Assembly (NCBI GenBank): GCA_022616275.1
Contig: JAKEFB010000271.1
Location: forward strand, 1 to 42,596
Source of the DNA: Chloroflexota bacterium
Lineage (GTDB): Bacteria > Chloroflexota > Anaerolineae > Promineifilales > Promineifilaceae
Length of the DNA: 42,596 nucleotides
Reading direction: 5' to 3'
A program made the translations under genes and the position numbers. This document shows, piece after piece, positions 2 to 41,660 of the stretch. Numbering within the stretch: the first letter of the stretch is position 1; every line of letters begins with the position of its first letter. Below the pieces are notes generated by a model. The model was given only the letters and a program-made list of their open reading frames with translations, was not told where the DNA came from and did no database searches.

Positions 2-478
2 CTGGAGCAGACCTACGCCAGGCTGGGCTACCGGGTGGGCTTTGTCGAGTACCTGATGGCCCGGCCACTAGAGGGATTGGTGGCCGCTGCCCTGCCTTAC
101 CTGGTGCGCCACGCCCGTAACAGCGACGACCTGCTGGCGTTGAGTGCCATTGAAGGGTTGGAGGATAGCAAGATGTGGCCGGCCGATCTATTGAATCCTA
201 TCTTCCGCTATTACTACGTGGTTGTGGATGGCCGGCCGGTGGCCAGGGGCCGCCTGGCCCGCTACGACGACGCTATTGCCTGGATATCGCACGTCTTCAC
301 GGCCCGGCCGTACCGCCGGCGGGGCATCGCCCGGAGCTTGATGCAACACCTGCTGGCCGACGGTGTGGCGGCCGGCTTTCGAGAGACGGTCTTACTTTCT
401 ACCGGGGAAGGACACGCTCTCTACCGGCAGGTGGGCTTTCAAGACCTGGCCAGGGTGGTGTCGTTTGTGGGGGTGTAG
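2..478 (+). CDS. Tandem-GNAT acetyltransferase, 5' truncated by window edge
   Basis: The reading frame is open from base 2, so the gene begins outside the window. The first visible residues (YARLGYRVGF, then LMARPL) look like the closing strands of one GNAT domain. They are followed by a second, complete-looking GNAT domain with the acetyl-CoA pyrophosphate-binding signature RPYRRRGIARSLM and a C-terminal LYRQVGF strand. A tandem two-domain acetyltransferase is therefore likely, moving an acetyl group from acetyl-CoA to an unidentified amine. The first in-frame start inside the window (GTG at 35) would cut the first domain and is not the true start. The TAG stop (476-478) lies inside the first unit of a short tandem repeat that fills the following gap. 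Confidence 0.75.
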   Translation: MEQTYARLGYRVGFVEYLMARPLEGLVAAALPYLVRHARNSDDLLALSAIEGLEDSKMWPADLLNPIFRYYYVVVDGRPVARGRLARYDDAIAWISHVFTARPYRRRGIARSLMQHLLADGVAAGFRETVLLSTGEGHALYRQVGFQDLARVVSFVGV

Positions 479-580
479 GAGTGTAGGGGTGTAGTTATGT
501 GGTTATGTTGTTTTGTGGTTAAGTAGTTGTTGCTGAAAGCTGAAAGCTGATAGCTCATAGCTGATAGCTGACAGCTATTT
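473..580. repeat. Octad array followed by heptad array
   Basis: Seven consecutive 8-nt units run 473-528 (GTGTAGGA, GTGTAGGG, GTGTAGTT, then progressively diverged units ending AAGTAGTT). After a short joint, seven 7-nt units run 532-580 (GCTGAAA twice, GCTGATA, GCTCATA, GCTGATA, GCTGACA, GCTATTT). The first octad contains the stop codon of the upstream GNAT gene. The array ends just before the trpG ribosome-binding site. No coding potential is apparent. Confidence 0.85.
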
Positions 581-593
581 TCGGAGGAATGGT

Positions 594-1157
594 ATGATTG
601 TGGTCATAGATAATTACGATTCTTTTACTTACAACCTGGTGCAGTACCTGGGTGAGTTGGGTGCGGAGCTGCGCGTGTTTCGCAATGACCAGGTGACGTT
701 GAAGGAAATCAGGGATCTGGCCCCAACGCACATCGTCATTAGCCCTGGCCCCGGCGACCCGGAGGATGGCGGCGTCTCCAACGAGGTTATTCGCCAGTTG
801 GGCGTGACGACGCCCGTTTTAGGGGTATGCCTGGGCCACCAGTGCATCGGCTACGTCTACGGCGGCAAGGTTAGCCGCGCGCCCCGGCTGATGCACGGCA
901 AAACGTCGGCCGTCTACCACAACGGCAAGGGACTTTTTTACGGCGTGCCCAGCCCCTTTCAGGCCACTCGCTATCACTCGCTCATCGTCGAGGAGCCGCT
1001 GCCTGGTAGCCTGGAAGTGACCGCCTTTACTCGCGACGGGGAGATCATGGGTTTGCACCACAAGGAGCACCCGGTGGTGGGCGTCCAATTCCACCCGGAG
1101 AGTATCTTGACCGAGCACGGTAAACGCATTTTGCAGAACTTTCTAGAGGGACGGTAA
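594..1157 (+). CDS. trpG: Anthranilate synthase glutamine amidotransferase subunit
   Basis: This class I glutamine amidotransferase supplies ammonia from glutamine to the TrpE subunit for anthranilate synthesis, the first committed step of tryptophan biosynthesis. The N-terminus [11 protein letters not shown] is typical of TrpG/PabA. The oxyanion-loop motif SPGPGDP lies near residues 50-56, the nucleophile is Cys79 in GVCLGHQ, and the His-Glu pair is H167/E169 in FHPES. The length of 187 aa is normal. A GGAGGA ribosome-binding site (583-588) precedes the ATG. trpD follows directly. No trpE is in the window, so the partner must lie elsewhere, and a shared role with PabB in folate synthesis cannot be excluded. 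Confidence 0.93.
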
Positions 1158-1171
1158 AAGGAGAGTGAGTG

Positions 1172-2206
1172 ATGCCACTAAAAGCTGCTATCGCCGAGGT
1201 AATTAACGGCCGCCACCTGTCTATGGACCAGGCTGAGGCGGCCATGAACGTCATTATGCGCGGCGAGGCAACGCCGGCCCAGATCGGCAGTTACCTGACG
1301 GCGCTGCGCATGAAGGGCGAGACGGTCGAGGAAATTGCCGGCAGCGCCAGGGCGATGCGCACCCACGTAGTCCGGGTGGATGTGCCTCTGGGGTTGGGCG
1401 GCATGTTGGTAGACACTTGCGGCACCGGGGGAGACGGCAAGCACACCTTCAACATTTCCACGACGGCCGCCTTCGTCGTCGCCGGCTACGGGCTGAAGGT
1501 AGCCAAGCACGGCAACCGGGCGGCCAGCAGCCAATGTGGCTCGGCCGATGTGCTCATGGCCCTGGGCGGCAACCTGGACCTGACGCCGGAACAGGTGGCC
1601 GAATGTATCCAGGAGGTCGGGATTGGCTTTTTGTACGCCGTGAATCACCACCCGGCTATGCGCCACGCCATTGGCCCGCGCCGGGAGATTGGCCAGCGGA
1701 CCATCTTCAACGTGCTCGGGCCGTTGACCAACCCGGCGGGGGCGACACATCAACTCATGGGTGTCTACGATCCGGTCCTGACCGAGCCGCTGGCCCACGT
1801 CCTGGACGCGCTGGGCAGTAAGGCGGCTTATGTCGTCCACGGTGCGGATGGGCTGGACGAGTTGTCTACCACAGGCGTCAACCGCGCCAGCCGCCTGGCC
1901 AACGGCGAGGTGACGAGCTTTGACCTGGACCCGGAAACGCTGGGACTCGGCCGGACCACGCTGGAGCAATTGCAGGGCGGTCCGCCGGAAATAAATGCCC
2001 AGATAACGCGCGACATCCTCACCGGGCAGGACCGGGGGCCACGGCGGGACATTGTCCTGCTGAACGCGGCCGCGGCCCTGAGCCTGACCTGCGACGACTG
2101 GGCGGCCGGGCTGGCGGAAGCCAGCGAGTCCATTGACAGCGGCGCGGCCCGCTATGTCCTGGATGCCTGGGTTGACAAGACCAACCGTTTCCGTCGCAAG
2201 GCGTAG
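1172..2206 (+). CDS. trpD: Anthranilate phosphoribosyltransferase
   Basis: Transfers the phosphoribosyl group of PRPP to anthranilate, the second step of tryptophan synthesis. The PRPP-binding glycine loop appears as DTCGTGGDGKHTFNIST, followed by KHGNRAASSQCGSADVL and the conserved GPLTNPA stretch. The length is about 344 aa, as expected. I prefer ATG 1172 because AAGGAG (1158-1163) sits 8 nt upstream; the adjacent GTG at 1169 would be only 5 nt away. The gene begins 14 nt after the trpG stop, so the two are almost certainly co-transcribed. Confidence 0.94.
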   Translation: MPLKAAIAEVINGRHLSMDQAEAAMNVIMRGEATPAQIGSYLTALRMKGETVEEIAGSARAMRTHVVRVDVPLGLGGMLVDTCGTGGDGKHTFNISTTAAFVVAGYGLKVAKHGNRAASSQCGSADVLMALGGNLDLTPEQVAECIQEVGIGFLYAVNHHPAMRHAIGPRREIGQRTIFNVLGPLTNPAGATHQLMGVYDPVLTEPLAHVLDALGSKAAYVVHGADGLDELSTTGVNRASRLANGEVTSFDLDPETLGLGRTTLEQLQGGPPEINAQITRDILTGQDRGPRRDIVLLNAAAALSLTCDDWAAGLAEASESIDSGAARYVLDAWVDKTNRFRRKA

Positions 2207-2209
2207 CTG

Positions 2210-2218
2210 TGTTACAAT
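2210..2218 (+). promoter_or_regulatory. Possible extended -10 promoter for the Uma2 gene
   Basis: TGTTACAAT matches an extended -10 element (TGn followed by a TATAAT-like hexamer). No good -35 is present at 17 nt. It would start transcription near 2225, just after trpD, allowing separate expression of the Uma2 gene and trpC. Confidence 0.35.
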
Positions 2219-2227
2219 GGAGGTGAT

Positions 2228-2257
2228 ATGAACGGCAATTTGGAGGTGCCAACATGA
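2228..2257 (+). CDS. Possible 9-codon leader peptide upstream of the Uma2 gene
   Basis: GGAGGTGAT (2219-2227), a long match to the anti-Shine-Dalgarno complement, is followed by ATG and a 9-codon frame reading MNGNLEVPT. Its TGA overlaps the ATG of the Uma2 gene (ATGA at 2254-2257). A second GGAGGTG (2242-2248) lies inside it and serves the Uma2 start. The arrangement fits translational coupling, but so short a frame could arise by chance. Spacing from the core GGAGG to ATG is only 4 nt, which is short. Confidence 0.25.
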   Translation: MNGNLEVPT

Positions 2258-2850
2258 CTACCCGGGTAGTGCAGCCTACAAAGGAGCGCGAGCACGCGTG
2301 GCCTCCTACACAGGGTGACTGGACATACGAGGACTGGTATCGTCTGCCCGACGACGGCATGCGCTACGAGTTGATAGATGGAGTTTTATACATGAGCCCA
2401 CCACCTTCGGTTGCCCATCAAAGTGCTGTGCTCCGCCTGGCTGCCCGGATGCTTTTCCATGCAGATACAAATGGCCTTGGCCTTGTCTTGACCTCGCCTA
2501 TTGCGGTTAGACTTCCCGGCCGGGATTCCGTTGTCGAGCCGGATATTTTGTTTATAGCCAAAGAACGACTGGACATTGTCGGTGAGGAGACGATAGACGG
2601 CGCGCCCGACCTGGTTGTCGAGGTGTTGTCGCCGGGCAACTACTTTTACGACCGGGGCAAGAAGCAGGAGGCGTATCGGGTGGCTGGTGTGCGCGAATAT
2701 TGGATTGTGGATAATCGCATGCGAACCGTGGAGGTTTTACAGCTTCAGGGGGAAGTTTTTGTCCCGTCCGAGCCGGCCGGTCGTGGCGCTGCCGTCCGTT
2801 CTTCGGCCCTGGCCGGTTTTGAAATTCACGTAGATGACCTTTTTGGCTGA
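2254..2850 (+). CDS. Uma2 family (DUF820) putative endonuclease
   Basis: This 198-aa protein belongs to the Uma2 family, a restriction-endonuclease-fold group common in cyanobacteria and Chloroflexota with poorly known roles. Visible features are YEDWYRLPDDGMRYELIDG at the N-terminus and the PD-(D/E)xK-like core EPDILFI, then APDLVVEVLSP, followed by the KKQEAYRVAGVREYWIVD helix-strand. GGAGGTG at 2242-2248 supports the ATG. The gene sits between trpD and trpC on the same strand with small gaps, so it is probably co-transcribed with tryptophan genes. A link to tryptophan metabolism is not implied, because Uma2 genes are often scattered singletons. Confidence 0.85.
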   Translation: MTTRVVQPTKEREHAWPPTQGDWTYEDWYRLPDDGMRYELIDGVLYMSPPPSVAHQSAVLRLAARMLFHADTNGLGLVLTSPIAVRLPGRDSVVEPDILFIAKERLDIVGEETIDGAPDLVVEVLSPGNYFYDRGKKQEAYRVAGVREYWIVDNRMRTVEVLQLQGEVFVPSEPAGRGAAVRSSALAGFEIHVDDLFG

Positions 2851-2862
2851 CAGCGACCGCTA

Positions 2863-3726
2863 ATGAGCGTGTCCAACGTAGCCAAACGCCGGGGGACTAT
2901 CCTGGACGAAATTATGCGCTTTCACCGAGAGCAGTTGCCCAAGGTAATGCGCGAAGTGCCACTGTCCGATTTACGAGCGCTGGCCAGCCTCGCCCTGCCG
3001 GCCGTGGATTTCTGCGCTGCCCTGCGACCGCCAGGCGTTTCCCTGATTGCCGAGTGCAAAAAGGCTTCTCCTAGCAAAGGGCTGCTGGTCCGCAACTACG
3101 ACCCCGTGGCGTTGGCCCGAAGTTACGTACGCGCCGGGGCCAGGGCCATTTCGGTGTTGACCGACGCCCGCCACTTCCAGGGCTCCCTGGAACATCTGCG
3201 GGATGTGAAGGAGGCGCTGAAGCAGCCGGCCGCGCTGATTGGCAACCGCAACGATCCCCGGCGAGAGCTAGGGATTCCTGTTTTACGTAAGGACTTCATT
3301 TTCCATCCCTACCAGGTGTACCAGGCCAGGGCGGCCGGGGCCGATGCCGTGTTGCTGATTGCCGCCGTCCTGGAAGGGGGAGAAATCGCCGAACTGTTGG
3401 CCCTGGCCCACCAGCTCCAGATGAATGCGCTGGTGGAAGTACACACCGAGCAGGAACTGGAGCAGGTTCTGCCGCTGAAGCCACGCGTCGTTGGCGTCAA
3501 CAACCGCAATTTGCAGACCTTTGAGGTGGACTTTGAGACCACCGCCCGGCTGCGGCGGTTGATTCCGGCCGGTGTGCTCGTGGTGGCCGAGAGTGGCATT
3601 AAAACACCGGAGGACGTGCGCCGGTTGCGTGAGCTGGGGGTGAATGCGATCCTGGTGGGGGAGACGCTGGTCAAGAGCAAGGACGTTTACGAGACAGCCC
3701 GGACGCTGGTCCAGGCTGGGCGGTAA
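2863..3726 (+). CDS. trpC: Indole-3-glycerol-phosphate synthase
   Basis: Closes the indole ring from carboxyphenylamino-deoxyribulose phosphate in tryptophan biosynthesis. TIM-barrel landmarks are visible in order: LIAECKKASPSKG (catalytic Glu and Lys), ISVLTDARHFQGS, VLRKDFIFHPYQV, ALVEVHTEQEL, VGVNNRNLQTFEV and VVAESGIKTPEDV. At 287 aa it is slightly long. The excess is explained by about 17 residues (KQPAALIGNRNDPRREL) between the helix VKEAL and the strand IPVLRKDF, where most homologues I know have almost nothing. The ATG lies 12 nt after the Uma2 stop. The TAA stop abuts the stop of the convergent zinc-ribbon gene with no base between them. Confidence 0.93.
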   Translation: MSVSNVAKRRGTILDEIMRFHREQLPKVMREVPLSDLRALASLALPAVDFCAALRPPGVSLIAECKKASPSKGLLVRNYDPVALARSYVRAGARAISVLTDARHFQGSLEHLRDVKEALKQPAALIGNRNDPRRELGIPVLRKDFIFHPYQVYQARAAGADAVLLIAAVLEGGEIAELLALAHQLQMNALVEVHTEQELEQVLPLKPRVVGVNNRNLQTFEVDFETTARLRRLIPAGVLVVAESGIKTPEDVRRLRELGVNAILVGETLVKSKDVYETARTLVQAGR

Positions 3727-4818: not shown

Positions 4819-4870
4819 TTAGCTGATTATGGCTTTTTTGCCAGCGTCGCGCAACCCACGACAGAAAAAT

Positions 4871-5107
4871 TTATCTTAGCGCTGGCCACTCGGCTACTCT
4901 GGTCTTGGCCCAGGCAGCATCGGCCGGAGGGAGAAAAGGTTGGGGAATGGGCTGAGTACAGTCTATGGCAGTTGTGTAGTAAGCGCGGTCATAAGTCGTG
5001 GCGAAAGCGCTTTGCAAATCGAGGGGAAGATCGGGGAAAGGAGGCCGGAGAGGAACAGCGACAACGGGTAGGGGGGAAGGATCCATGCCAGGAAAAGGTG
5101 AAGGCAT
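4871..5107 (-). pseudogene. DUF4058 remnant with internal deletion
   Basis: The 78-aa frame joins the characteristic DUF4058 N-terminus (MPSPFPGMDP) directly to a typical DUF4058 C-terminal segment (VVAVPLRPPFPDLPLDLQSA, then DRAYYTTAIDCTQPIPQPFL, and AAWAK). Intact family members are several times longer, so roughly 150-200 internal codons appear to be missing. The fusion point falls near 5075-5080. The deletion kept the frame open, so a short product could still be made. Family assignment is from memory of the consensus ends. Confidence 0.6.
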
Positions 5108-5119
5108 TACCTCTGTACC

Positions 5120-7065: not shown

Positions 7066-7083
7066 TTTTTATTCACCTTTGAA

Positions 7084-7165
7084 TCGCGAATGGCACGAAT
7101 GGACGAATGACGCGAATGTTTTAAAAATTATTAGCGCCATTCGTTGAATTCGCCGCTATTCGCGA
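7084..7165. repeat. Direct and inverted CGAATG repeats
   Basis: Four CGAATG-containing units occur with 8-9 nt period at 7085-7118. The complementary CATTCG and ATTCGCG units lie at 7138-7165. TCGCGAAT (7084-7091) can pair with ATTCGCGA (7158-7165). The element fills the gap between the 74-aa gene and nfo, both on the minus strand. Confidence 0.7.
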
Positions 7166-7168
7166 TAA

Positions 7169-7393: not shown

Positions 7394-7395
7394 GG

Positions 7396-8172: not shown

Positions 8173-8234
8173 ACGCTCTCCACAAGCATTCTGGGCCGGC
8201 CGGCGTGCTACAGGACTCAGACCGGTTGGCTGGT

Positions 8235-8262: not shown

Positions 8263-8281
8263 GGCAGACCCCGGCCTGCAT

Positions 8282-8310: not shown

Positions 8311-8315
8311 AAAAC

Positions 8316-8367
8316 CAAGAGCTAGAGCTAGAGCTAGAGGAAGCCAGGACTCTAGCTCTAGCTCTTG
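8316..8367. repeat. Perfect 18-bp inverted repeat made of GAGCTA hexads
   Basis: CAAGAGCTAGAGCTAGAG (8316-8333) is exactly complementary to 8350-8367, with 16 nt between the arms. The arms are tandem 6-nt units (GAGCTA). It lies between the divergent LysM gene and glgA, so it is not a terminator for either gene. A leader hairpin or a protein-binding site is more plausible. Confidence 0.85.
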
Positions 8368-8397
8368 CTCCACACTCAAAGACACAGGAATGAGGTG

Positions 8398-9855: not shown

Positions 9856-9870
9856 GTAGAGGTTATTGGT

Positions 9871-11427
9871 ATGCGTTTTCCACGATCTGGCGGCGTTCTC
9901 ATTCATCCCACTTCTTTCCCCGGCCGCTATGGCATCGGCGACCTGGGGGAGGCAGCTTACCGCTTTGTTGACTTTCTGGAGTGGTGCAAACAAACCATCT
10001 GGCAGGTGCTGCCCCTGGGGCCGACCGGCTACGGGGATTCCCCTTACCAGGCTTTTTCGGCCTTTGCCGGCAACCCGTTGCTTATCAGCCCAGACCGGCT
10101 GGTTCAGGAAGGGTACCTGCCGGCCGGGGCTGTGGCCAGCGTGCCCAACCTCCCGACCTACCGGGTGGACTTTGGGCCGGTGATTAACTACAAGAACGAA
10201 CTGCTCCGGCAGGCTTACGAACATTTCCAGGAGCAGGGAACGGCTGAACAACAGGAAGCGTTTGAACAGTTCTGCGCTGTCCAGGCCGGCTGGCTGGACG
10301 ACTTTGCTCTCTTTATGGCCCTGAAGGCCCACCACGCCGATCAGGCGGGCGGGGTCTGGAATACCTGGCCCAAAGAGCTGGTGCGGCGCAGGCCGGCCGC
10401 CTTGAAAAAGTGGGCCGGCACGTTGAATGCTGAAGTCGTCCGGCACAAGTTCAACCAGTTCCTCTTTTTTGAGCAGTGGCTGGCCCTGAAACAGTACGCC
10501 AACGAGCGAGGCATTCGCATTGTCGGCGACGTGCCCATTTTTGTCGCCTTCGACAGCGCCGACGTGTGGGCTAACTCCGACCTTTTTTACCTGGATAGGG
10601 CCGGCCGGCCGACGTTCGTGGCCGGCGTGCCGCCGGATTATTTCAGCGAGACCGGCCAGCGCTGGGGTAATCCCCTTTATCGCTGGGAGGTGATGGCCAG
10701 CAATGACTACGCCTGGTGGGCCGAACGGCTGAAAATGGTCTTTACCCAGGTGGATGTGGTCCGTATTGACCATTTCCGGGGCTTTGAAGCGTATTGGGAG
10801 ATCCCGGCCGACGAACCGACGGCCGTCATCGGCCGCTGGGTGAAGGGGCCAGACGCGGCTTTCTTCCAGGCGATGCGGGAGACGCTGGGCGAACTGCCGA
10901 TTATCGCCGAAGACCTGGGGGTTATTACGCCGGAGGTTGAGGCGCTGCGGGACCGGTTCGGGTTTCCGGGGATGAAAATCCTCCAGTTTGCCTTTGGCGG
11001 GGACAAAAAGAGCGATTTCCTGCCCCATAACTTTACCCACAATTGCGTCGTCTACACCGGCACGCACGACAATGAGACGACGGTTGGCTGGTACCTGAAC
11101 GCCAGTCCGGCCGAACAGGACCACGTCCGCCGCTACGTGGCCCGCGATGGCAGCGACGTTGCCTGGGACCTGATACGTCTGGCCTACGCCTCGGTGGCCG
11201 ACACGGCCGTCGTTCCGATGCAAGACCTGATGTCGCTGGGCAACGAGGCGCGGATGAACTACCCCGGCAAGAGCGGCGGCTGGTGGCAGTGGCGCTACTT
11301 GCCTAACATGCTCACCGATCTGATGGCCTTACGCTTGAAAGAGATGACGGCGCTGTACGGCCGGGCACCGAAGGAGCCGGAGGAGGATGGAGAGACAAGG
11401 GGACAGGGGGACAAGGGGACAAGGTGA
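9871..11427 (+). CDS. malQ: 4-alpha-glucanotransferase (amylomaltase, GH77)
   Basis: Disproportionates alpha-1,4-glucans; with glgA next door it suggests glycogen or maltodextrin turnover. GH77 landmarks are SGGVLIHPTSFPGRYGIGDLG, LPLGPTGYGDSPYQ, the nucleophile region VVRIDHFRGF, IAEDLGVITPEVEALRD and TGTHDNETTVGW. The length of 518 aa is normal. The last ~15 residues (GETRGQGDKGTR) are encoded by a purine-rich 8-nt tandem repeat (about 11398-11427) and look like a recent repeat-driven extension. The stop overlaps the start of the next gene by GTGA. Confidence 0.94.
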   Translation: MRFPRSGGVLIHPTSFPGRYGIGDLGEAAYRFVDFLEWCKQTIWQVLPLGPTGYGDSPYQAFSAFAGNPLLISPDRLVQEGYLPAGAVASVPNLPTYRVDFGPVINYKNELLRQAYEHFQEQGTAEQQEAFEQFCAVQAGWLDDFALFMALKAHHADQAGGVWNTWPKELVRRRPAALKKWAGTLNAEVVRHKFNQFLFFEQWLALKQYANERGIRIVGDVPIFVAFDSADVWANSDLFYLDRAGRPTFVAGVPPDYFSETGQRWGNPLYRWEVMASNDYAWWAERLKMVFTQVDVVRIDHFRGFEAYWEIPADEPTAVIGRWVKGPDAAFFQAMRETLGELPIIAEDLGVITPEVEALRDRFGFPGMKILQFAFGGDKKSDFLPHNFTHNCVVYTGTHDNETTVGWYLNASPAEQDHVRRYVARDGSDVAWDLIRLAYASVADTAVVPMQDLMSLGNEARMNYPGKSGGWWQWRYLPNMLTDLMALRLKEMTALYGRAPKEPEEDGETRGQGDKGTR

Positions 11428-11429
11428 CA
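11397..11429. repeat. Purine-rich octad repeat at the end of malQ
   Basis: Units of GGGGACA and AGGGGACA-type spaced 8 nt apart cover the malQ terminus, its stop codon and the start of the next gene. This places a tandem array of the intergenic type inside coding sequence. Confidence 0.7.
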
Positions 11430-12555: not shown

Positions 12556-12627
12556 GCCCCTGTAGCTCAGAGGATAGAGCGTTGGCCTCCGGAGCCAAAG
12601 GCCCGAGTTCGAGTCTCGGCAGGGGTA
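12556..12627 (+). tRNA. tRNA-Arg (anticodon CCG)
   Basis: A complete cloverleaf can be drawn. The acceptor GCCCCTG pairs with CAGGGGT (closing G-U pair). The D-arm is GCTC/GAGC, the anticodon arm is TTGGC/GCCAA with loop CTCCGGA (anticodon CCG, reading CGG), and the T-arm is CCGAG/CTCGG with loop TTCGAGT. The discriminator is A, and CCA is not encoded. Confidence 0.93.
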
Positions 12628-13097: not shown

Positions 13098-13156
13098 TTT
13101 GGAGATTAGAGAATAGAGATTGGAGATTGTGATCAACTTCTGTTGTCAATCTCCAA
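13098..13156. repeat. GGAGATT-type heptad array with inverted arm
   Basis: Units of GGAGATT, AGAGAAT and AGAGATT run through 13101-13129. TTGGAGATTG (13120-13129) is perfectly complementary to CAATCTCCAA (13147-13156). The array starts directly after the RRM stop codon. Confidence 0.75.
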
Positions 13157-14776: not shown

Positions 14777-14864
14777 AGTTCCTCCGCTGGTGGGGTGGCA
14801 GGCGCCACGCCACACTTGGCATAAAACGCTTCTACCGGATTGTATGTGAGAACGTGGAGAGGGG

Positions 14865-14899
14865 CAAGTGGCAGGTGGCAGGTGTCAAGTGCCAGGTGC
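14865..14899. repeat. CAGGTGG-type heptad array
   Basis: Five consecutive 7-nt units: CAAGTGG, CAGGTGG, CAGGTGT, CAAGTGC, CAGGTGC. It lies between the SRPBCC gene and the membrane-protein gene, both on the minus strand. Confidence 0.8.
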
Positions 14900-14945
14900 C
14901 AGACTGTGGCAAGGCCAAAGTCCTGTCAAGTGGCGATAGGTAGTT

Positions 14946-16092: not shown

Positions 16093-17067
16093 ATGGAAGC
16101 AGTGATTATCCTTAATCAGCAAGAGGTTGAAGCGCTGCTGGACCTGGACCAACTGGTGCAGGCGCTGGCCCCGGCTATGGCCGATTTGAGCGCCGGCCGG
16201 GTGTCAATGCCACAACGGGTAGCGGCGCTGGTGCAGGAGCAACAGGGGCTGTTAGGGGTGATGCCGGTTTACCTGCCGTCATCTCAGACGCTGGCCGTCA
16301 AGCTGGTCAGCGTCTTCCCCGGCAACGCCGGCTCGGGCCGGCCGACGCACCAGGCGGTGGTCCTGGTCTTTGATGCCGCCAACGGCGCGCCCCTGGCGCT
16401 GCTGGATGGGACGTACCTGACGGCCGCCCGGACAGCGGCCGGCTCGGCGCTGGCCACCCAACTGCTGGCCCGGCCGGAGGCGGACGTGCTGGCCATCGTC
16501 GGGACGGGGGTCCAGGCCAGGGCCCACGCGCGGGCCATTCCCCGCGTCCGGCCGGTGCGGGAGATTCGCATCCTGGGGCGGGATCCAGAGAAGGCCGGCC
16601 AATTGACTACAGAAATTAGTGAGGGGCAAGGCATCCCGGCCAGGGCGGTGGCTTCTTTCCAGGAGGCGGCGGCCGGGGCGGGGGTTATCTGCGCCGCCAC
16701 CCACGCCAGCCAGCCGGTGGTCCTCGGCCGGTGGCTGGAGCCGGGCACGCACGTCAACTCGGTTGGGCTGCACCCCAACGGCCGGGAACTGGACGACGAG
16801 ACGATCCTGAAATCGCTCGTCGTCGTCGAACAGCGGGCGGCGGCGCTGACCCACCTGTCCGGCGGGGCCAATGACCTCACCTGGCCAATCCGCGATGGGC
16901 TGATCAGCGAAGCCCACATTCGGGCCGAGGTGGGCGAGCTGGTGGCCGGCACGCGCCAGGGGCGGACCAGCCCGGAGCAGATCACGCTCTATAAGTCGGT
17001 TGGGGTGGCTGTACAGGATGCGGTCGCGGCGCAACTGGTCTTGGACGCGGCCCGTAAGGGATTTTAG
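16093..17067 (+). CDS. Ornithine cyclodeaminase/mu-crystallin family dehydrogenase
   Basis: This 324-aa NAD(P)-dependent enzyme belongs to the family that includes ornithine cyclodeaminase, alanine dehydrogenase (archaeal type) and ketimine reductases. The substrate domain shows AVKLVSVFPGNAG, then LLDGTYLTAARTAAGSALAT. The Rossmann motif is VLAIVGTGVQARAHARAI (G-x-G-x2-A). VNSVGLHPNGRELDDE and YKSVGVAVQDAVAA close the pattern. ATG 16093 gives the normal length; the upstream GTG at 16012 would add unrelated residues from the tetR promoter. Substrate assignment is not possible from sequence alone. The TAG stop lies in the first unit of a heptad array. Confidence 0.88.
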   Translation: MEAVIILNQQEVEALLDLDQLVQALAPAMADLSAGRVSMPQRVAALVQEQQGLLGVMPVYLPSSQTLAVKLVSVFPGNAGSGRPTHQAVVLVFDAANGAPLALLDGTYLTAARTAAGSALATQLLARPEADVLAIVGTGVQARAHARAIPRVRPVREIRILGRDPEKAGQLTTEISEGQGIPARAVASFQEAAAGAGVICAATHASQPVVLGRWLEPGTHVNSVGLHPNGRELDDETILKSLVVVEQRAAALTHLSGGANDLTWPIRDGLISEAHIRAEVGELVAGTRQGRTSPEQITLYKSVGVAVQDAVAAQLVLDAARKGF

Positions 17068-17094
17068 ATTTTAGATTTGGATTTTAGATTGGGG
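17061..17094. repeat. ATTTTAG-type heptad array
   Basis: Units ATTTTAG (17061-17067), ATTTTAG (17068-17074), a 6-nt ATTTGG, ATTTTAG (17081-17087) and ATTGGGG. The first unit supplies the stop codon of the cyclodeaminase-like gene. Confidence 0.8.
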
Positions 17095-20587: not shown

Positions 20588-20646
20588 CTGGAGTTAGAGT
20601 ATCGAGTTAGAGTATCTACTTCTCCTTTGACGCTAACTCTAACTCT
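20588..20646. repeat. GAGTTAGAGTATC direct repeat with inverted arm
   Basis: GAGTTAGAGTATC occurs twice (20591-20603, 20604-20616). CTCTAACTC (20637-20645) is the complement of GAGTTAGAG. It lies between the divergent alpha-oxoamine synthase and PBP genes. Confidence 0.75.
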
Positions 20647-23735: not shown

Positions 23736-23900
23736 AACTGGACAGGGAGAGGGGGAGAGGGAGTGACAACTGGACAACTAACTGTCTAAGGGCGTTCACG
23801 CGGCCTTCACGTTGAATTTACGGCCCACATACGGACGACTTTTGCTGGCTGGCGTATGCTAAGGGTGATTTGGCAGGGCTCAGGTTAGCCTGGCAATCTG

Positions 23901-23928
23901 ACGACAGACGACGGACGACGGACGACAG
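23901..23928. repeat. ACGACGG-type heptad array
   Basis: Four consecutive 7-nt units: ACGACAG, ACGACGG, ACGACGG, ACGACAG. It lies in the 263-nt space between the PBP stop and the histidine-kinase start. That space otherwise holds only a short purine-rich repeat just after the PBP stop (23740-23780). Confidence 0.8.
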
Positions 23929-28340: not shown

Positions 28341-28421
28341 AACGACCTCCTAAAAAGTGATTAGTAATGAGTAATGAGTGTAGTTGGCCGGGCCAACCGC
28401 GAGAACTGAGGACTGAGTATG

Positions 28422-28472
28422 CAAGTCTGCAAGTTTGTGAGTTACTTGCAGACTTGCCACTTGCAGACTTGG
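28422..28472. repeat. Inverted repeat of CAAGTCTG units
   Basis: CAAGTCTGCAAGT (28422-28434) is perfectly complementary to 28444-28456, with a 9-nt loop. A further ACTTGCAGACTTG copy follows at 28459-28471. It lies between divergent genes, so it is not a terminator. Confidence 0.8.
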
Positions 28473-31450: not shown

Positions 31451-31879
31451 ATGGCTAGCGTATCTTCCAATATCGTGATTAATCAACCCGTTGAGAAAGT
31501 TTTCAACTACGTCACGGCCGTCGAGAATCATACAGCCTGGCAAGCAAGTATTCTGGAGGCCAGGGTGACGCCCGATGGCCCGCTAGGCGTGGGTTCGACG
31601 TACCATTACACCACTGACGTCATGGGCCGCCGGTTCCAGTCGCAAATGCAGATATCGGCTTTTGAACCGAACAGGAAATGGAGTGTCAGAACGACCGGCG
31701 TCCCGACCCCGGTTGAGACTGTCTACCTGTTTGAGCCTGTCGGGAACACCACGAAGTTAACGATCTCAATGGAACTGTCTGGTGGATACCCTGCCGCGGC
31801 CGAAGCCATGGTCAAGCAACAGATGCAGAAGTCCCTCGACGAACAGGGTAATCGAATCAAGCAGATGGTGGAAAGATAA
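31451..31879 (+). CDS. SRPBCC (START-like) protein
   Basis: The 142-aa protein has the helix-grip fold pattern: VSSNIVINQPVEKVFNYVTA, then ENHTAWQASILEARVT, GSTYHYTTDVMGR, ISAFEPNRKW and a C-terminal helix ending NRIKQMVER. It is likely a small hydrophobic-ligand binder or cyclase-like protein. AAGGAGG (31438-31444) supports ATG 31451; the open frame upstream to 31319 crosses the promoter. The TAA stop is immediately followed by a heptad array. Confidence 0.88.
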   Translation: MASVSSNIVINQPVEKVFNYVTAVENHTAWQASILEARVTPDGPLGVGSTYHYTTDVMGRRFQSQMQISAFEPNRKWSVRTTGVPTPVETVYLFEPVGNTTKLTISMELSGGYPAAAEAMVKQQMQKSLDEQGNRIKQMVER

Positions 31880-31914
31880 GCTGTAAGCTAGCAGCTTTTA
31901 GCTATTGGCTATCA
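31880..31914. repeat. GCTATTG-type heptad array, left of the S23-like gene
   Basis: Five consecutive 7-nt units: GCTGTAA, GCTAGCA, GCTTTTA, GCTATTG, GCTATCA. The array begins on the base after the SRPBCC stop codon. Confidence 0.82.
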
Positions 31915-31928
31915 ACTATCCATCCATA

Positions 31929-32291
31929 ATGCAAGATTTTCGGCAGTTGCAGGTCTGGCAAAAGAGCCATGCGATTGTCTTGGCGATTTATCAGGCTACG
32001 CAGGCCTTTCCTCCAAGTGAAATGTATGGCTTGACCAATCAACTTCGCCGGTCGAGTACGTCTATTCCGACCAATATTGCCGAAGGGTGCGGCCGCGGCA
32101 GTGACGCCGGCTTTGTTCGTTTTTTGCATTTTGCTGTAGGCTCGGCCAACGAAGTTGAATACCAGCTACTGCTTGCCCATGATATAGGCTACCTGAACCA
32201 GGCAGTTTACCAGCAACTGAATCAGCAAACTGCTGAAATCAAGCGTATGCTCATAGGGCTACTTAAAACACTGAAGATCAATAGCTCATAG
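31929..32291 (+). CDS. Four-helix-bundle protein (S23/IVS type)
   Basis: 120 aa, starting MQDFRQLQVWQKSHAIVLAI, followed by the family signatures LTNQLRRSSTSIPTNIAEG and LHFAVGSANEVEYQLLLAHD. Members occur inside rRNA intervening sequences and as free genes in many phyla; their function is unknown. ATG 31929 is preferred on homology; the ribosome-binding site is weak. The gene is bracketed by two heptad arrays built from related AGCTA-containing words, and its stop lies inside the right-hand array. Confidence 0.9.
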   Translation: MQDFRQLQVWQKSHAIVLAIYQATQAFPPSEMYGLTNQLRRSSTSIPTNIAEGCGRGSDAGFVRFLHFAVGSANEVEYQLLLAHDIGYLNQAVYQQLNQQTAEIKRMLIGLLKTLKINSS

Positions 32292-32323
32292 CTAACAGCT
32301 AACAGCTTATAGCTAACAGCTAT
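32282..32323. repeat. TAGCTAA-type heptad array, right of the S23-like gene
   Basis: Six consecutive 7-nt units: TAGCTCA, TAGCTAA, CAGCTAA, CAGCTTA, TAGCTAA, CAGCTAT. The array contains the stop codons of both flanking convergent genes (TAG 32289-32291 on plus, TAG 32322-32320 on minus). Confidence 0.88.
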
Positions 32324-35962: not shown

Positions 35963-35970
35963 GCCTACAA

Positions 35971-35999
35971 GTAGAGACGTTGCATTGCAACGTCTCTAC
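35971..35999. repeat. 14-bp palindrome GTAGAGACGTTGCA/TGCAACGTCTCTAC
   Basis: A perfect 14-bp inverted repeat around one central base, filling the gap between the two oxidoreductase gene pairs. Very similar GTAGAGACG palindromes are, to my memory, scattered through genomes of cyanobacteria and other phyla as short interspersed palindromes. Confidence 0.9.
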
Positions 36000-36000
36000 C

Positions 36001-37524: not shown

Positions 37525-37573
37525 AGTTACTCCAAGTGATGAGGACTGAGTCCTCCATCCTCTCGCTCTTGCT

Positions 37574-39439
37574 CTAGCTCAGCTCCATGATCTTCTCGTA
37601 AATCTCGCGGATGGTGAACGGCCGGGCATGCAGCTTGGGGTAGGGCTGGACGTTGATGGCGTAACGGCCGCGCAGCAAAAAGGCCAGTTGGCCGCTGTTG
37701 AGTTCCGGCGTGACAATGCGCTTGTAACGGCTCAGAATGTCGCGCAGGTTGCGCGGGAAGGGGTTGAGGTAACGCAGGTGAGCGTGGGCGACCGATTTCC
37801 CTTCCTGCTGGGCGCGCCGCACGGCCGTGCGGACCGCGCCGTAGGTGCCGCCCCAACTGACCAGCAACAAATCGCCAGCCTTGGGCCCAAAAACTTCCTG
37901 ATCGGGAATGACGTCGGCCAGCGCGGCCACCTTGTGAGCCCGGTCGGTGACCATCCGCTCGTGGTCCTGGGGTGCGTAAGAGACGTTGCCGGTGACAGGC
38001 GCTTTGCTCAGGCCGCCCAGCCGGTGTTCCAGGCCGGCCGTGCCGGGCAGGGCCCACGGCCGGGCCAACGTCATTTCGTCGCGCAGATAGGGCAAGAACG
38101 GTTCCTGGCCGTTGCCGTCCTGGCGCGGCCCCGGATGATTCACGACTATAGGCGCGATGTCGTCAGGGTTGGGGAGAAGCCAGGGTTCGGAACTGTTGGC
38201 CAGGAAGCCTTCAGACAGGTACAGGACAGGCGTCATACCCCGGATAGCCAGCCGCACCGCTTCGATGGCCATGTCAAAACAATCGGCCGGGCTTTGGGGA
38301 GCAACGATAGGAATGGGGCTCTCGCCGTTGCGGCCGAACATGGCCTGCAGCAGATCGGACTGTTCCGTCTTGGTGGGTAGACCGGTGCTGGGACCGCCCC
38401 TCTGAACGTCCACAATGACCATCGGCAGCTCCAGGACAATGGCCAGGTTAATGGCCTCGCTCTTGAGGGCCAGGCCGGGGCCGCTGGTACCGGTGACGGC
38501 GATGGCTCCGCCAAAGGCCGCGCCAATCACCGAGCCTATCGCCGCAATTTCGTCTTCGGCCTGGAAGGTGCGCACGTCGTAGTGGCGCAGCGGGGCCAGG
38601 AAGTGGAGGATGTCGCTGGCCGGGGTAATGGGATAGCTGCCGTAAAAGAGTGACTTGCCGGCCTTCTGGGCAGCCGTTACCAAACCCATTGCCGTGGCTT
38701 CATTGCCCGTGATCTTGCGGTAGACGCCGGGCGGCAGCGCAGCCGGGCGGACCCGGTAGCGCTGGCGGAAGATTTCGGTGTTTTCGCCGTAGTAGTAGCC
38801 CATTTTCAGGGCCTTGGTGTTGGCCTCGATCAGTTCGGGCTTGCCGGTGAATTTCTTATCAATCCAGGCCAGGGTGGTGTCTATCGGCCGGTCGAAGATC
38901 CAGAAGCTCAGGCCCAGGGCAAAGAAGTTCTGGCTGCGGTCCTTGTCCTTGCTGGAAAGCCCCTGGACATCCTTGAGGGCGTCGCGGTTGAGCGAGGTCA
39001 GGGGGACCTGGTGGACCTGGTAGCCGGCCAGGGAGCTATCATCCAGCGGGCTGGTCTCGTAGCCGGCTTTGCGCAGGTTTTGCTGGTTAAAGGCGTCGGT
39101 ATTGACAATGATCGTCCCGCCCTTTTTCAGTTCGGGCAGGCTCTTTTTGAGAGCGGCCGGGTTCATGGCCACCAGCACTTCCGGCTCGTCACCTGGAGTG
39201 AGGATGTCTTCGCTGGAGAACTTCACCTGGAAGCCGCTGACACCGGGCAGTGTACCGGCCGGAGCGCGAATTTCGGCCGGGAAGTCTGGCAGCGTGCTCA
39301 CGTCGTTGCCAAAGACGGCCGAAGTGTTGGTGAATTGGGTGCCGGTAAGCTGCATCCCGTCGCCCGAGTCGCCGGCAAAATGAATGACGATGGAGTCCAG
39401 CTCTTCGATGACTGACTCTTTTTCTTTTACGTCGGACAT
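37574..39439 (-). CDS. korA: 2-oxoglutarate:ferredoxin oxidoreductase gamma-alpha fusion subunit (first complex)
   Basis: 621 aa. The gamma domain starts [20 protein letters not shown], followed by [20 protein letters not shown], the hallmark of KGOR-type KorA. The alpha domain has [91 protein letters not shown] and a C-terminal transketolase-C-like domain. The start is supported by AGAGGT upstream. The gap to korB (50 nt) and the gap to the CBS gene (about 107 nt) carry repeats but no promoter I can identify. The 2-oxoglutarate assignment is from overall KorA likeness. Confidence 0.9.
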
Positions 39440-39464
39440 AGTACCTCTAATTCTTAGTGTGTAA

Positions 39465-39540
39465 GGAGATTAGAGATTGGCGATTAGAGATTGACAACCA
39501 GAGGTTGCTCACAATCTCCAATCTCTAATCGCCAATCTCC
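39465..39540. repeat. GGAGATT/AGAGATT heptad array with inverted heptad arm
   Basis: The left arm has units GGAGATT, AGAGATT, GGCGATT, AGAGATT (39465-39492). The right arm, read on the other strand, has GGAGATT, GGCGATT, AGAGATT, GGAGATT. GGCGATTAGAGATTG (39479-39493) pairs perfectly with 39519-39533. It fills the gap between the CBS gene and korA inside an apparent operon. Confidence 0.88.
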
Positions 39541-39546
39541 GCTTCA

Positions 39547-40014
39547 TCACCCACCCTCCACCTTCTCCGGGATCTGGTCCGGGCGGGGGGGCAGGTTCAA
39601 AATCTCGATCGGGTAACGGGCAGCCAGGTAATTGATAATCGCCTGGTGGGTCATATTGCCGACGATGGCCCCGGAGGAATCCACGGCCGGCAGGTTGCGG
39701 AAATGCCGCTCGTCCATTAACCACAACGCTTCGGCGGCCGGGGCGTCTGGGCTGATGGTAATGGGGCTGGAGGTCATGACGGTGTCTACCGGCCCGCTCC
39801 AGGTTTGGGGTGCGGTGACCACTTTGCGCAGCACGTCCCGGTCGGTGAGAATGCCGATCAGGTGGTTATCCTGGGTCACCAGGCAGACGTTGACCCCCTT
39901 TTCGCGCATGAGAGCGACCACGTCCCGCACCGGTGTGCCACTGGCCGCCTGGCAAAAGCTCGACAAATCGAGGTGGGATACCTGTTCAGTGTGCAAAACT
40001 TCTTTTAAGCTCAT
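39547..40014 (-). CDS. Stand-alone tandem CBS-domain protein
   Basis: 155 aa. Two CBS domains: residues ~13-72 (GTPVRDVVALMREKGVNVCL, then LIGILTDRDVLRKVV) and ~78-140 (VMTSSPITISPDAPAAEALW, FRNLPAVDSSGAIVGNMTHQ). Such Bateman modules bind adenosine nucleotides. It starts 2 nt after the GntR stop and precedes korA, which suggests it regulates the oxidoreductases, possibly together with the CBS pair fused to korB. Confidence 0.9.
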   Translation of the reverse strand: MSLKEVLHTEQVSHLDLSSFCQAASGTPVRDVVALMREKGVNVCLVTQDNHLIGILTDRDVLRKVVTAPQTWSGPVDTVMTSSPITISPDAPAAEALWLMDERHFRNLPAVDSSGAIVGNMTHQAIINYLAARYPIEILNLPPRPDQIPEKVEGG

Positions 40015-40016
40015 GC

Positions 40017-40784
40017 TTACTCCATCCTCTCGCTCTGGCTTGATATTCGTCGCTGGCTGTGGCCGGTCTCTGACCCCGGCTGGTTTCCAGCCGCCTCCAC
40101 CCCAGCCGTTAATTCAGGATGTAAAATGGCGGCCGGCAGCAAATCAAAATGTTCGATCAGGACTTGCCGGCCGCGCTCAAAATCGTCTTCACAGAGGGCC
40201 TCGACAATCGCCTGGTGATAGGTCCAGACGGTAACCCAGTAATGATATTCGGCAAAGCGGGTCACCTGGCTGGTCTCGTAAGCGTCCCAATAGGCTTGCA
40301 GCAGGCCCTGGACAAAGGGGTTGTCCAGGCGGCTGAAGATAGTCAGGTGAAGGTCACGGTGTTCGCCATTGGGAATATGCACCGGGTCGCCCCGCAATCT
40401 GCTCCAGGCCCGGGCCAGGATATCTTTGAGCCGCTGTTTGTCTTCGACCGTTAACTGGGTGACTGCTTCGTGCCACATGCTGGCTTCAATGGTCTGGCGC
40501 AACTGGCTGAACTGGGCGAAAGAGGCCTCGTCAGTGGCCAGGCTAAAGAGCAGACTGGTGAGCACGGCCCGGTGGAAGTTGAACTCTTCGCGGCGAGTGC
40601 CCAGGCGCGGCCGGACTGAGACCAGCCCCAGGTGGCGCGCCAGCTCCAGTTGCTCGCGGAGCTTGCCGACGCTGACCCCCAGCTCATTGCTGAGTTCGGT
40701 CAGGGCCGGCAGCCGGTCTCCTGGCTTTACCTCCTGGTCAATCAGGTACTGCAGCAGTTCAGAATTTAGCTTGTCTAACCGCAT
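40017..40784 (-). CDS. GntR/FadR-family transcriptional regulator
   Basis: 255 aa. An N-terminal winged helix (LLQYLIDQEVKPGDRLPALT, then ELSNELGVSVGKLREQLELA) is followed by an FCD-type all-helical ligand domain (SLLFSLATDEASFAQFSQLR, HRDLHLTIFSRLDNPFVQGL, and YHYWVTVWTYHQAIVEALCE). The His residues of the FCD domain may bind a metal and a carboxylate ligand such as a 2-oxoacid. The last ~30 residues are low-complexity. First gene of the CBS-kor cluster, so it probably controls it. Confidence 0.88.
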   Translation of the reverse strand: MRLDKLNSELLQYLIDQEVKPGDRLPALTELSNELGVSVGKLREQLELARHLGLVSVRPRLGTRREEFNFHRAVLTSLLFSLATDEASFAQFSQLRQTIEASMWHEAVTQLTVEDKQRLKDILARAWSRLRGDPVHIPNGEHRDLHLTIFSRLDNPFVQGLLQAYWDAYETSQVTRFAEYHYWVTVWTYHQAIVEALCEDDFERGRQVLIEHFDLLPAAILHPELTAGVEAAGNQPGSETGHSQRRISSQSERME

Positions 40785-40930
40785 GGCCCAATGATCTAAT
40801 GAATCTAATCAATCCTATGGTTTTAATTTTAACAAAAATAGCGCTGGTGACAAGCACAGAAAGGTCCTTGCAGGTCATGAAAACATGCCGGATGCTTTGT
40901 TGAAGTCGGCCGGCTTGCGCTAGGCGAGAA

Positions 40931-40972
40931 GATTGGAGATTGGAGACTGGAGATTAGAGATTAGAGATTAAT
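40931..40972. repeat. GATTGGA/GATTAGA heptad array
   Basis: Six consecutive 7-nt units: GATTGGA twice, GACTGGA, GATTAGA twice, GATTAAT. The last unit contains the stop codon of the nitroreductase gene (TAA on the minus strand, 40970-40968). The rest of the space up to the GntR start (40785-40930) shows no feature I can support. Confidence 0.85.
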
Positions 40973-41576
40973 CGTCCAGGAGAATCGTCCGGGAGGCCAG
41001 GGGGTGGCGGCCTTTTTCTTTTTGTTCGGCCGGATAGCCCAACGTAATCAGCCCCTGGGGTTGCCAGCCGGCCGGCAGGTCGAGCGTCTCCCGGACGACC
41101 TCGGGGCAAAAGAGGGGCGCGCACATCCAGCAGGCGGCCAGCCCCAGGGCGTGGGCGGCCAGCAGCAGGTTTTGCCCGGCCATGGCCACCGACTGGACGG
41201 CCATGATCCACTCGTTGCGCTGCCGCCGCTCGTCGGGGTAAACGTCCATGTCGGCCATGCTCAGGCAGAGAAGGACGAGAACCGGGGCGGCGGTGAGGCG
41301 CTGGTAGGAGCGGCCGGCGTCCTTCTCAATGACCTCTTCGGGCATGTGGTCGGCCGCCAGGTCGGCCCGGAGCTGCTGACCCATGGCCGTGGCCAGGCGG
41401 TGCTTTGTCTCTGCGCTGGTGACGACGGCAAAGCGCCACGGCTGGCGATTGTGGGCCGAGGGCGCCCAGGTGGCAGCCAGCAGCGCCTCTTCCACCAGCT
41501 CCCGAGGAACCGGGGTGAGTTGGTAGCGGCGAATCGAGCGCCGGCCGCGCAGCAGGGTGAAGTATTCGTTGGACAT
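40968..41576 (-). CDS. Nitroreductase, FbiB C-terminal-domain type
   Basis: 202-aa FMN-dependent nitroreductase-fold protein: RRSIRRYQLTPVPRELVEEA, TWAPSAHNRQPWRFAVVTSA, QSVAMAGQNLLLAAHALGLA, then ACWMCAPLFCPEVV and LPAGWQPQGLITLGYPA. The pattern around CWMCAPLF and the WxPQ segment resembles the C-terminal domain of FbiB, which acts in coenzyme F420 maturation. No F420 ligase domain is attached, so an F420 role is only suggested. The stop codon falls in a heptad array, and another array lies just upstream of the start. Confidence 0.85.
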   Translation of the reverse strand: MSNEYFTLLRGRRSIRRYQLTPVPRELVEEALLAATWAPSAHNRQPWRFAVVTSAETKHRLATAMGQQLRADLAADHMPEEVIEKDAGRSYQRLTAAPVLVLLCLSMADMDVYPDERRQRNEWIMAVQSVAMAGQNLLLAAHALGLAACWMCAPLFCPEVVRETLDLPAGWQPQGLITLGYPAEQKEKGRHPLASRTILLDD

Positions 41577-41590
41577 TGTCTTCCTGTCGT

Positions 41591-41660
41591 ATTGGAGATT
41601 GGAGATTAGCGATTGGAGATTGGAGGTGGGTTAATCTCCATTCTCCAATCGCTAATCTCC
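41591..41660. repeat. ATTGGAG heptad array with 25-bp inverted arm
   Basis: Left units: ATTGGAG twice, ATTAGCG, ATTGGAG twice (41591-41625). GGAGATTAGCGATTGGAG and the next seven bases (41601-41625) pair with 41636-41660 with one mismatch, leaving a 10-nt loop. The right arm contains the stop codon of the methyltransferase gene. Confidence 0.9.

Follow-up and report, generated by a model that had tools for sequence, protein, structure and literature searches.

The stretch of DNA analysed here (the window, 42,596 nucleotides of contig JAKEFB010000271.1, C196 in our numbering, from the Chloroflexota assembly GCA_022616275.1) contains short intergenic arrays of degenerate heptamers and octamers. 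They probably belong to a dispersed family of small mobile hairpins, either as the arms of these or as relatives that lack a gene; in complete form such a hairpin would carry a gene of the IVP/S23 four-helix-bundle type (PF05635). To this reading we assign a probability of about 0.7. In a full element the IVP/S23 gene would be flanked on the left by an arm of tandem degenerate heptamers or octamers and on the right by an arm in which the word is inverted. One such element (31877-32322) is present in the window, together with about fifteen gene-less arrays or hairpins. A previous examination of the letters alone (the sequence-only reading) had taken the arrays at 31880 and 32282 as separate, but they are the arms (31877-31920 and 32281-32322) of one hairpin around the IVP gene, with an inverted score of 17 and a length of 446 bp. 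When folded, the arms pair around the gene (-158.7 kcal/mol, z -4.8), and the right arm extends to the end of the convergent gene at 32320. The encoded protein has the PDB relatives 2gsc (E 3e-20) and 2rld (E 2e-11).

The host genome (8.53 Mb in 309 contigs, labelled G000) was compared within a set of 60 genomes, itself included, and was sampled twice, in 441 kb and in a larger sample of 1,241,010 bases from 61 pieces (the 1.24-Mb sample, 91% coding according to a crude gene caller). PF05635 has nine matches in this genome, eight of them above the cut-off. Inverted flanks, defined by a score of at least 14, surround 7 of these 9 genes versus 7 of the 949 other genes of the sample; among further controls, they were found at 1 of 259 genes of 60-200 aa and at none of the 10 non-IVP genes within the IVP loci. 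The flanks measured 200 bp for the IVP loci of the host genome and its relatives and for their control genes, and 250 bp for the loci of other groups and plasmids; the large matched control belongs to the 200-bp set alone.

Regarding the other genomes, PF05635 is present in 50 of the 60, the host included, and the loci in relatives were the best-scoring search matches, with no random draw. The host and its relatives gave 38 IVP loci, from which L215 (without an open frame) and L198, L203, L206 and L225 (at contig ends) were dropped; L203 and L225, cut in this way, scored 16 and 13. The flank cut is passed by 22 of the 33 loci used, in which the words differ by genome and the periods are 7 or 8. 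Among 30 genomes of other groups PF05635 was found in 16, and the 30 IVP loci from other groups were reduced to 23 by dropping L284 and L291, without an open frame, and L287, L289, L290, L298 and L302, with a short flank; 13 of the 23 pass. Furthermore, 32 plasmid records match PF05635, and among the 12 chosen for examination, all cyanobacterial, 11 pass (Calothrix, Pseudanabaena, Nostoc, Trichormus, Picosynechococcus, Aulosira, Geminocystis and Stanieria). Three of these 12 loci (L309, L312 and L313) carry one related element, and L318, intended as a second-site copy, shares its neighbours with L317 and gives no additional case. In the plasmid loci 3 of 8 neighbouring genes also score at least 14, which is taken to be due to 250-bp flanks that reach the arms or other arrays. 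The IVP open frames were chosen by position and some were extended at the start; the frame chosen for L214, which forms a long tree branch, is probably not that of the IVP gene.

The insertion of IVP elements is shown by empty sites in Nostoc plasmids. Two plasmids of Nostoc sp. ATCC 53789, pNsp_a and pNsp_c, have a segment A-B-C in common (91-98% nucleotide identity). In pNsp_a, A and B are separated by an IVP element whose arms are of the AGTCAGA type, at a junction that is empty in pNsp_c. Conversely, pNsp_c has a different IVP element, with arms of the GGGAAAA type, at the junction of B and C, which is empty in pNsp_a. The element between A and B is placed at the stop codon of A, which is TAG in the empty site and TAA in the filled one. 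Moreover, a related element of about 418 bp (78-82% nucleotide identity) occurs at three unrelated plasmid sites, in Trichormus, Aulosira and Nostoc sp. ATCC 53789, and its homology stops at the outer arm ends.

Related genomes can also have different words in one and the same gap. For the gap 5' of the gene adjacent to the host IVP locus L189 (judged by eye to be murE, following ftsI), 30 of the 60 genomes were read, L232 being cut. This gap contains an IVP gene with GGACTGA-type arms in three genomes (G000, G010, G029), solo arrays with other words in seven (G013, G015, G022, G025, G030, G033, G035) and weak solo arrays in G008, G009 and G018; the remainder are short gaps or non-heptamer hairpins. 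Even congeners differ there, in the word (G015 versus G030) or in the number of units (G022 versus G035). Similarly, among the 17 loci displayed for the gap before trpG, arrays or hairpins with other words are found in L033, L039, L041, L034 and L029.

Concerning the arrays themselves, those of the window were detected by Tandem Repeats Finder (TRF) plus a simple autocorrelation score. Nine of the ten 7-nt arrays claimed by the sequence-only reading were recovered by TRF as period-7 rows (532-576, 14863-14902, 17060-17090, 23900-23928, 28363-28379, 32280-32322, 39466-39492 with 39512-39540, 40930-40969 and 41591-41625), and its 8-nt and 6-nt arrays were recovered at 473-528 and 8318-8370. The tenth, at 31880-31914, gave no TRF row and is a degenerate period-7 array of AGCT words with a score of 9.5. 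Further arrays, which that reading did not contain, lie at 11394-11429, 13099-13129, 20591-20645, 28416-28471 and 37560-37585.

These arrays are real and above chance. In the 441-kb sample there were 35 arrays of period 7, 13 of period 8, 12 of period 14, 4 of period 6 and 2 each of periods 12 and 15, with none at the remaining periods from 2 to 15. The 1.24-Mb sample gave 153 arrays of period 7, 64 of period 8, 18 of period 6, 10 of period 9, 6 of period 3, 3 of period 4, 1 of period 5 and none of period 10. Its longer periods peak at multiples (69 at 14, 44 at 21, 26 each at 16 and 18, 24 at 24, 21 each at 12 and 15), and the arrays of period 12, 15, 18 and 24 are mainly within genes. Among non-overlapping arrays, the intergenic share was 122/150 for period 7, 48/62 for period 8 and 8/18 for period 6. 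Shuffles did not give equal numbers of 7-nt runs but none, so that the claim of a genuine 7-nt step stands: Markov-1 shuffles of the 441-kb sample produced 0 arrays, and one shuffle of the 1.24-Mb sample produced 1 each at periods 5 and 9 and 0 at all other periods. One candidate cause for a period that is not a multiple of 3, the supply of stop codons in three frames, was rejected, with 58 of 122 heptamer arrays versus 65.9 expected, and 5 versus 14.0 on both strands.

Many of the arrays are the two arms of hairpins. An inverted partner (score of at least 10, within 100 bp) accompanies 79 of the 178 intergenic arrays of period 6-8, versus 1 of 178 in a flank-swap control. Some hairpins also share an apex. 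The pattern GCAACC-4nt-GGTTGC has 0 matches in the genome, and the looser CAACC-N(2-6)-GGTTG occurs at 24 places in the host sample, 13 of them intergenic. Seven of these 13 lie inside RGAGATT arms (window 39495-39507; L009, L010, L019 with two, L023 and L184), and the copies in L182 and L187, in other arms, share the form CAACCTACGGTTG. Slippage alone would not make the apex found within the RGAGATT arms.

The sequence-only reading had also held that almost every gap has its own word. This did not survive the larger sample, in which eight word families, set up by eye as patterns, account for 116 of the 122 intergenic heptamer arrays: RGAGATT (40), CACYTGR (21), AGCTNAY (13), GACGAYR (13), TGAGYRA (9), GATTTTA (8), CAACYAY (6) and AACCAAT (6). 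The 48 intergenic octamer arrays form five additional families, with 2 arrays outside them. Among the ten 7-nt arrays of the window, three are RGAGATT (39465, 40931, 41591) and three have AGCT words (532, 31880, 32282); the solo array at 532-576 has the same word type as the arms of the window IVP element.

The families behave as genome dialects. Three units of RGAGATT have 365 matches in the host genome and are present in 18 of the 60 genomes, AGCTNAY has 73 and is present in 4, and CACYTGR has 116 and is present in 6. In genomes of the same family the period is kept and the words differ (GAATTAC and GAATGAC in G024, CACCCAT in G005), and across the genomes searched the heptamer words occur in both orientations. 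It had further been stated that the cyanobacterial heptamers use a few fixed words, which does not agree with the 12 plasmid IVP loci, where AGTCAGA, GGGAGTA, GGGAAAA, GTAGGGT and AGCTAAA appear.

The arm words of IVP elements largely predict the solo arrays of the same genome. Six of the eight arm words of the host were found in its own sample (34 loci, the window arms included) and none of these six in 0.76 Mb of other genomes, and eleven arm words from other genomes gave 3 loci in the host sample. Two predictions made for whole genomes held. GCAGTRA, from an IVP arm of G035, matches that genome at 91 places and its congener G022 at 23; another 10 matches fall in three other genomes, and the remaining 55 of the 60 have none. 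GCAGGGGA, from an IVP arm of G024, was found 65 times in G024 and 3 times each in its congener G003 and in G000, the remaining 57 genomes having no match. The reversed-word control GAATGAC is itself a dialect word, with up to 101 matches in G024, and is no clean control. In addition, nine genomes without PF05635 had 0 arrays in 214 kb, and eleven PF05635-bearing genomes besides the host had 51 arrays in 540 kb, 26 of these in G024. The shared words suggest that solo arrays descend from IVP elements by gene loss. The sequence-only reading had proposed a constraint on period or structure rather than sequence. The first part agrees with the preference for period 7 or 8, which holds for this genome and for the loci pooled from others, and with the inverted pairing; the exclusion of sequence does not hold, with words limited per genome and reused at dozens of loci, and with most of the tested arm words matching solo arrays.

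Period and word were also followed on a tree of 69 IVP proteins, 55 of them labelled and many of its forks without resolution. The 7/8 period label requires 5 changes, versus a mean of 8.6 after shuffling, and 0 of 500 shuffles were as low. AGCT-like words are common to one IVP clade in Chloroflexota and Cyanobacteria with 51-64% protein identity. Word and protein similarity are weakly related over all pairs (Mantel r 0.10, p 0.008), and for cross-phylum pairs the values are r 0.04 and p 0.15. The idea that words track IVP protein similarity across phyla in general was discarded, as the signal comes from the AGCT-like clade alone.

An alternative origin is local polymerase slippage, in which 7 nt is the length contacted by the polymerase and any heptamer expands in place into neutral arrays; MacGregor 2015 (PMC4679880) credits this proposal to earlier work. 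The dominance of period 7 in 80 pooled loci of other genomes, several of these loci from other phyla (27 of period 7, 17 of period 8, 7 of period 6) is in line with it, and some long near-perfect arrays in relatives resemble fresh expansion. Neighbouring units are also more alike than distant ones at polymorphic columns, a similarity biased by the selection of arrays on lag-7 identity and kept out of the support for the mobile-hairpin reading. Slippage leaves unexplained the identical words at dozens of unlinked loci, the genome dialects, the inverted arms, the IVP genes between them and the empty sites. Moreover, adjacent RGAGATT units, which were not selected in this way, are alike at the variable R in 49 of 131 cases, slightly less often than in shuffles (p 0.047). 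We regard slippage as quite an unlikely source of the arrays as a whole, and it may well lengthen arms following insertion. Between the two arms, facing units agree at R in 22 of 66 cases (null 0.48, p about 0.007, in one of seven registers tried), and the low likeness at this position could possibly reflect selection against perfect repeats. Compensatory pairing was rejected on the same count: R is not mirrored between the arms, which gives no support there for fresh fold-back copying or for selection of exact pairing.

The position of the arrays at genes brings in a second alternative, that the hairpins are transcription terminators or 3'-end protectors in which RNA structure is selected and any word would serve provided that it pairs. 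In co-directional gaps (n = 106) the median distance is 6 nt from the stop codon to the array block and 24.5 nt from the end of the block to the next start. Array density per kb is 1.81 in co-directional, 2.03 in convergent and 0.92 in divergent gaps, and arrays overlap the 3' end of a gene at 38 of the 142 ends that face an occupied gap. Elements sit at gene ends, frequently at or just past the stop codon, and the next ribosome-binding site is usually spared. This placement, with divergent gaps about half as dense, would suit terminators, as would the folding z below -2 in 76 of 145 array gaps (52%) versus 49 of 150 control gaps (33%). Divergent gaps are nevertheless occupied, and the missing mirroring of R does not suit a pairing constraint. 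Folding energy has no sense-strand preference (55 versus 48, p 0.52), and of the 106 gaps 1 has a T-run behind the array on the sense strand and 12 have one on the antisense strand, compared with 17 of 295 random places. Because the sense-strand folding preference and the U-tracts are missing, the arrays are not ordinary terminators, and terminators or end protectors are a very improbable account of them.

It has also been considered whether the heptamers are bound by regulators acting on RNA or DNA, with one regulator per word; a post-transcriptional role was raised for TAACTGA repeats in MacGregor 2015 (PMC4679880). The constant cores within families (AGCT, GATT, GACGA) and the position near starts and stops are what such sites would show. 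On the other hand, the words occur in both orientations, about a dozen of them are used in the host genome, the same gap has different words in related genomes, and the arms that flank IVP genes are inverted. We give this explanation hardly any credence.

Finally, the IVP genes could be passengers that landed in hairpins already made, the arrays being mobilised by a separate system. There are 9 IVP genes genome-wide versus 178 intergenic arrays in 15% of the genome, none of the 9 host IVP genes lies in a copy with the commonest word, RGAGATT (40 of the 122 heptamer arrays), and some solo hairpins carry short conserved apices instead, as in the 7 of 13 CAACC..GGTTG cases within RGAGATT arms. 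Against passengers stand the match by genome between the words of IVP arms and solo arrays, the clustering of periods on the IVP tree, and the occurrence of element and arms as a single unit of about 418 bp at the three cyanobacterial plasmid sites. We consider this option unlikely, though of some weight.

Several observations weigh against mobile hairpins with an IVP-bearing full form. Besides the lack of an IVP-bearing RGAGATT copy, two host IVP genes are exceptions: L193 has flanks of array words that are not inverted, and L196 is an Avd-like gene without arms. The flank cut is missed by 11 of 33, 10 of 23 and 1 of 12 IVP loci in the three sets, and more than half of the solo arrays are without an inverted partner at the score used. 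The arm words of L193 and L194, the remaining two of eight, are not in the host sample, and the former occurs 6 times in the 0.76 Mb of other genomes, where it is commoner than at home. The correlation between IVP genes and arrays (Spearman 0.81) comes from 21 genomes with small samples and no correction for kinship, and six of the nine IVP-free genomes are outside the family of the window. G009 has no PF05635 match and 20 RGAGATT matches, and G016 has 5 IVP genes and 0 arrays in 54 kb. The cross-phylum link between word and protein has p 0.0002 with the AGCT-like clade and 0.14 without it. At the Nostoc plasmid elements no target-site duplication distinct from the arm sequence could be separated; TTCTA is found at both ends of the pNsp_a element and is inseparable from the arm. 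To our knowledge, IVP is no known transposase, and we know of no mobility enzyme linked to it.

Regarding mechanism, the IVP protein may take part in the spreading of the elements; it might bind the hairpin and recruit, in trans, a reverse transcriptase or a polymerase of repair. The 7- or 8-nt step would be fixed during arm synthesis, and element lineages that vary in word and period would give rise to the genome dialects. A wider proposal is that IVP/S23 hairpins are an unrecognised transposase-free mobile class, in which IVP, a relative of Avd, reads the word and period of its own arms and brings a polymerase or reverse transcriptase in trans. This one class would have produced both the heptamer repeats known from cyanobacteria and further phyla and the 23S intervening sequences. 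This wider proposal we put forward tentatively, at somewhat less than even odds.

Among known systems, the best reading of the family is as an intergenic counterpart of the 23S rRNA intervening sequences (IVS). The known IVS are located within helices of the 23S rRNA. According to Warrier et al. 2016 (PMC4990558), the IVS of Leptospira and Coxiella form a stem from terminal complementary sequences and are called selfish elements, and in Coxiella the S23 gene is preceded by two or three tandem heptamers, depending on the strain. As in those, an IVP/S23 gene lies in a hairpin loop, in the window and at 7 of 9 host IVP genes. Unlike those, the window element lies between protein genes and not inside a 23S rRNA (the sole Rfam match of the window is a tRNA gene at 12556-12627), gene-less arrays far outnumber genes, and the arms are made of heptamers or octamers. 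Among the matches listed, mostly non-subscription full text, S23 protein and heptameric repeats were joined only in the text seen of Warrier et al. 2016.

The cyanobacterial short tandemly repeated heptamers go by the name STRR. The arrays described here resemble them as degenerate tandem heptamers at many intergenic loci (122 in 1.24 Mb); unlike them, the host is a member of the Chloroflexota and not a cyanobacterium, and cyanobacterial IVP loci nonetheless show similar arms. According to the sections consulted of Rehm et al. 2015 (PMC4692102), heptamers occur near gene ends in Xanthomonas and Nostoc, with no role settled there; those of Xanthomonas also form inverted pairs, and position is often kept where length and sequence vary (PMC4692102, PMC4679880). 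The repeats in these sections have single words (GGGAATC, GGGGAYT, TAACTGA) and no linked gene is named in them, whereas about a dozen words, tied to IVP elements, are found in one genome here.

REP (repetitive extragenic palindromic) sequences, bacterial interspersed mosaic elements (BIME) and miniature inverted-repeat transposable elements (MITE) are likewise small dispersed intergenic hairpins, mainly gene-less. The present elements differ in their tandem-array arms and genome-specific words; no transposase was linked to them, Y1_Tnp not being among the families searched for, and their array words are shared with elements that code for IVP, itself no known transposase.

PF05635 resembles Avd of the diversity-generating retroelements (DGR; 4DWL versus 2GSC, according to the part seen of PMC10053308). 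Unlike in a DGR, the 4 RVT_1 matches of the genome include none on contig C196, template and variable repeats not having been searched for at each IVP gene, and the copy that does lie beside an RVT_1 match (L196, contig C160) is without heptamer arms. L196 (G000:C160:1174-1473) is PF05635-like with 30 bits, below the cut-off, and adjoins RVT_1 at C160:1756-2346. Downstream of it is a WNNNNGFRLV-like motif, which we take to resemble DGR variable regions, and the locus is probably a DGR with its Avd.

In the parts seen of PMC4692102 and PMC4990558, intergenic heptamers and the S23/IVP gene are each described with no agreed function or origin. If both belong to one element family, then insertion, dependence on IVP and RNase III cutting of invaded operons become testable. 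The sites of this kind are, in cyanobacterial plasmids and with annotated names, cas6|cas4 and cas10|cmr3 (both CRISPR-Cas) and nrdB|nrdA, the loci being L307 (Pseudanabaena NZ_CP112875), L311 (Picosynechococcus NZ_CP016476) and L310 (Nostoc edaphicum NZ_CP054697), and ftsI|murE, named by eye, in the host genome. Annotators could then treat genes for a "four helix bundle protein" and their flanking repeats as possible mobile DNA, and there would be a concrete lead on the origin of a bacterial type of short repeat.

Table 1. Repeat arrays, hairpins and the IVP gene along the window.
Feature	Position	Strand	Remarks
8-nt array	466..528		Gap 5' of gene 594-1157 (trpG by eye)
Solo heptamer array, AGCT words	532..576		Its end is 17 nt ahead of the gene start at 594
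Two-armed 6-nt hairpin, AGAGCT words	8318..8370		Arms 8318-8339 and 8350-8370
8-nt array, GACAAGGG words	11394..11429		3' end of gene 9871-11427
Solo heptamer array, RGAGATT words	13099..13129		TRF
Solo heptamer array, GGTGGCA / CACYTGR family	14860..14902		TRF
Heptamer array, GATTTTA words	17060..17094		Overlaps 3' end of gene 16093-17067
Hairpin, GAGTTA words	20591..20645		Arms 20591-20616 and 20633-20645
Solo heptamer array, GACGAYR words	23900..23928		TRF
Short heptamer array, TGAGTAA words	28357..28383		TRF
8-nt hairpin, CTTGCAGA words	28416..28471		TRF
Left arm of IVP element	31877..31920		Degenerate AGCT-word heptamers; starts at the stop codon of the upstream gene
IVP/S23 four-helix-bundle gene	31929..32291	+	PF05635, 138 bits; possible longer frame from TTG 31905
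Right arm of IVP element	32281..32322		AGCT-word heptamer array; holds the IVP stop codon
6-nt array, CTCTAG words	37560..37585		TRF
Two-armed RGAGATT hairpin	39466..39540		Apex CAACC...GGTTG
Single-armed RGAGATT array	40930..40970		Overlaps 3' end of gene 40968-41576
Two-armed RGAGATT hairpin	41591..41660		Arms 41591-41625 and 41633-41660

Open frames other than IVP were also seen between inverted flanks (L182:8628-8730, L177:4850-5450 and L152:762-1515), and these may be other cargo or chance. Concerning the neighbourhood of the first arrays, the nearest named relatives of the protein encoded at 594-1157 are from metagenome-assembled genomes of Chloroflexota, with up to 84% identity, labelled Chloroflexi, Anaerolineae or Ardenticatenaceae.

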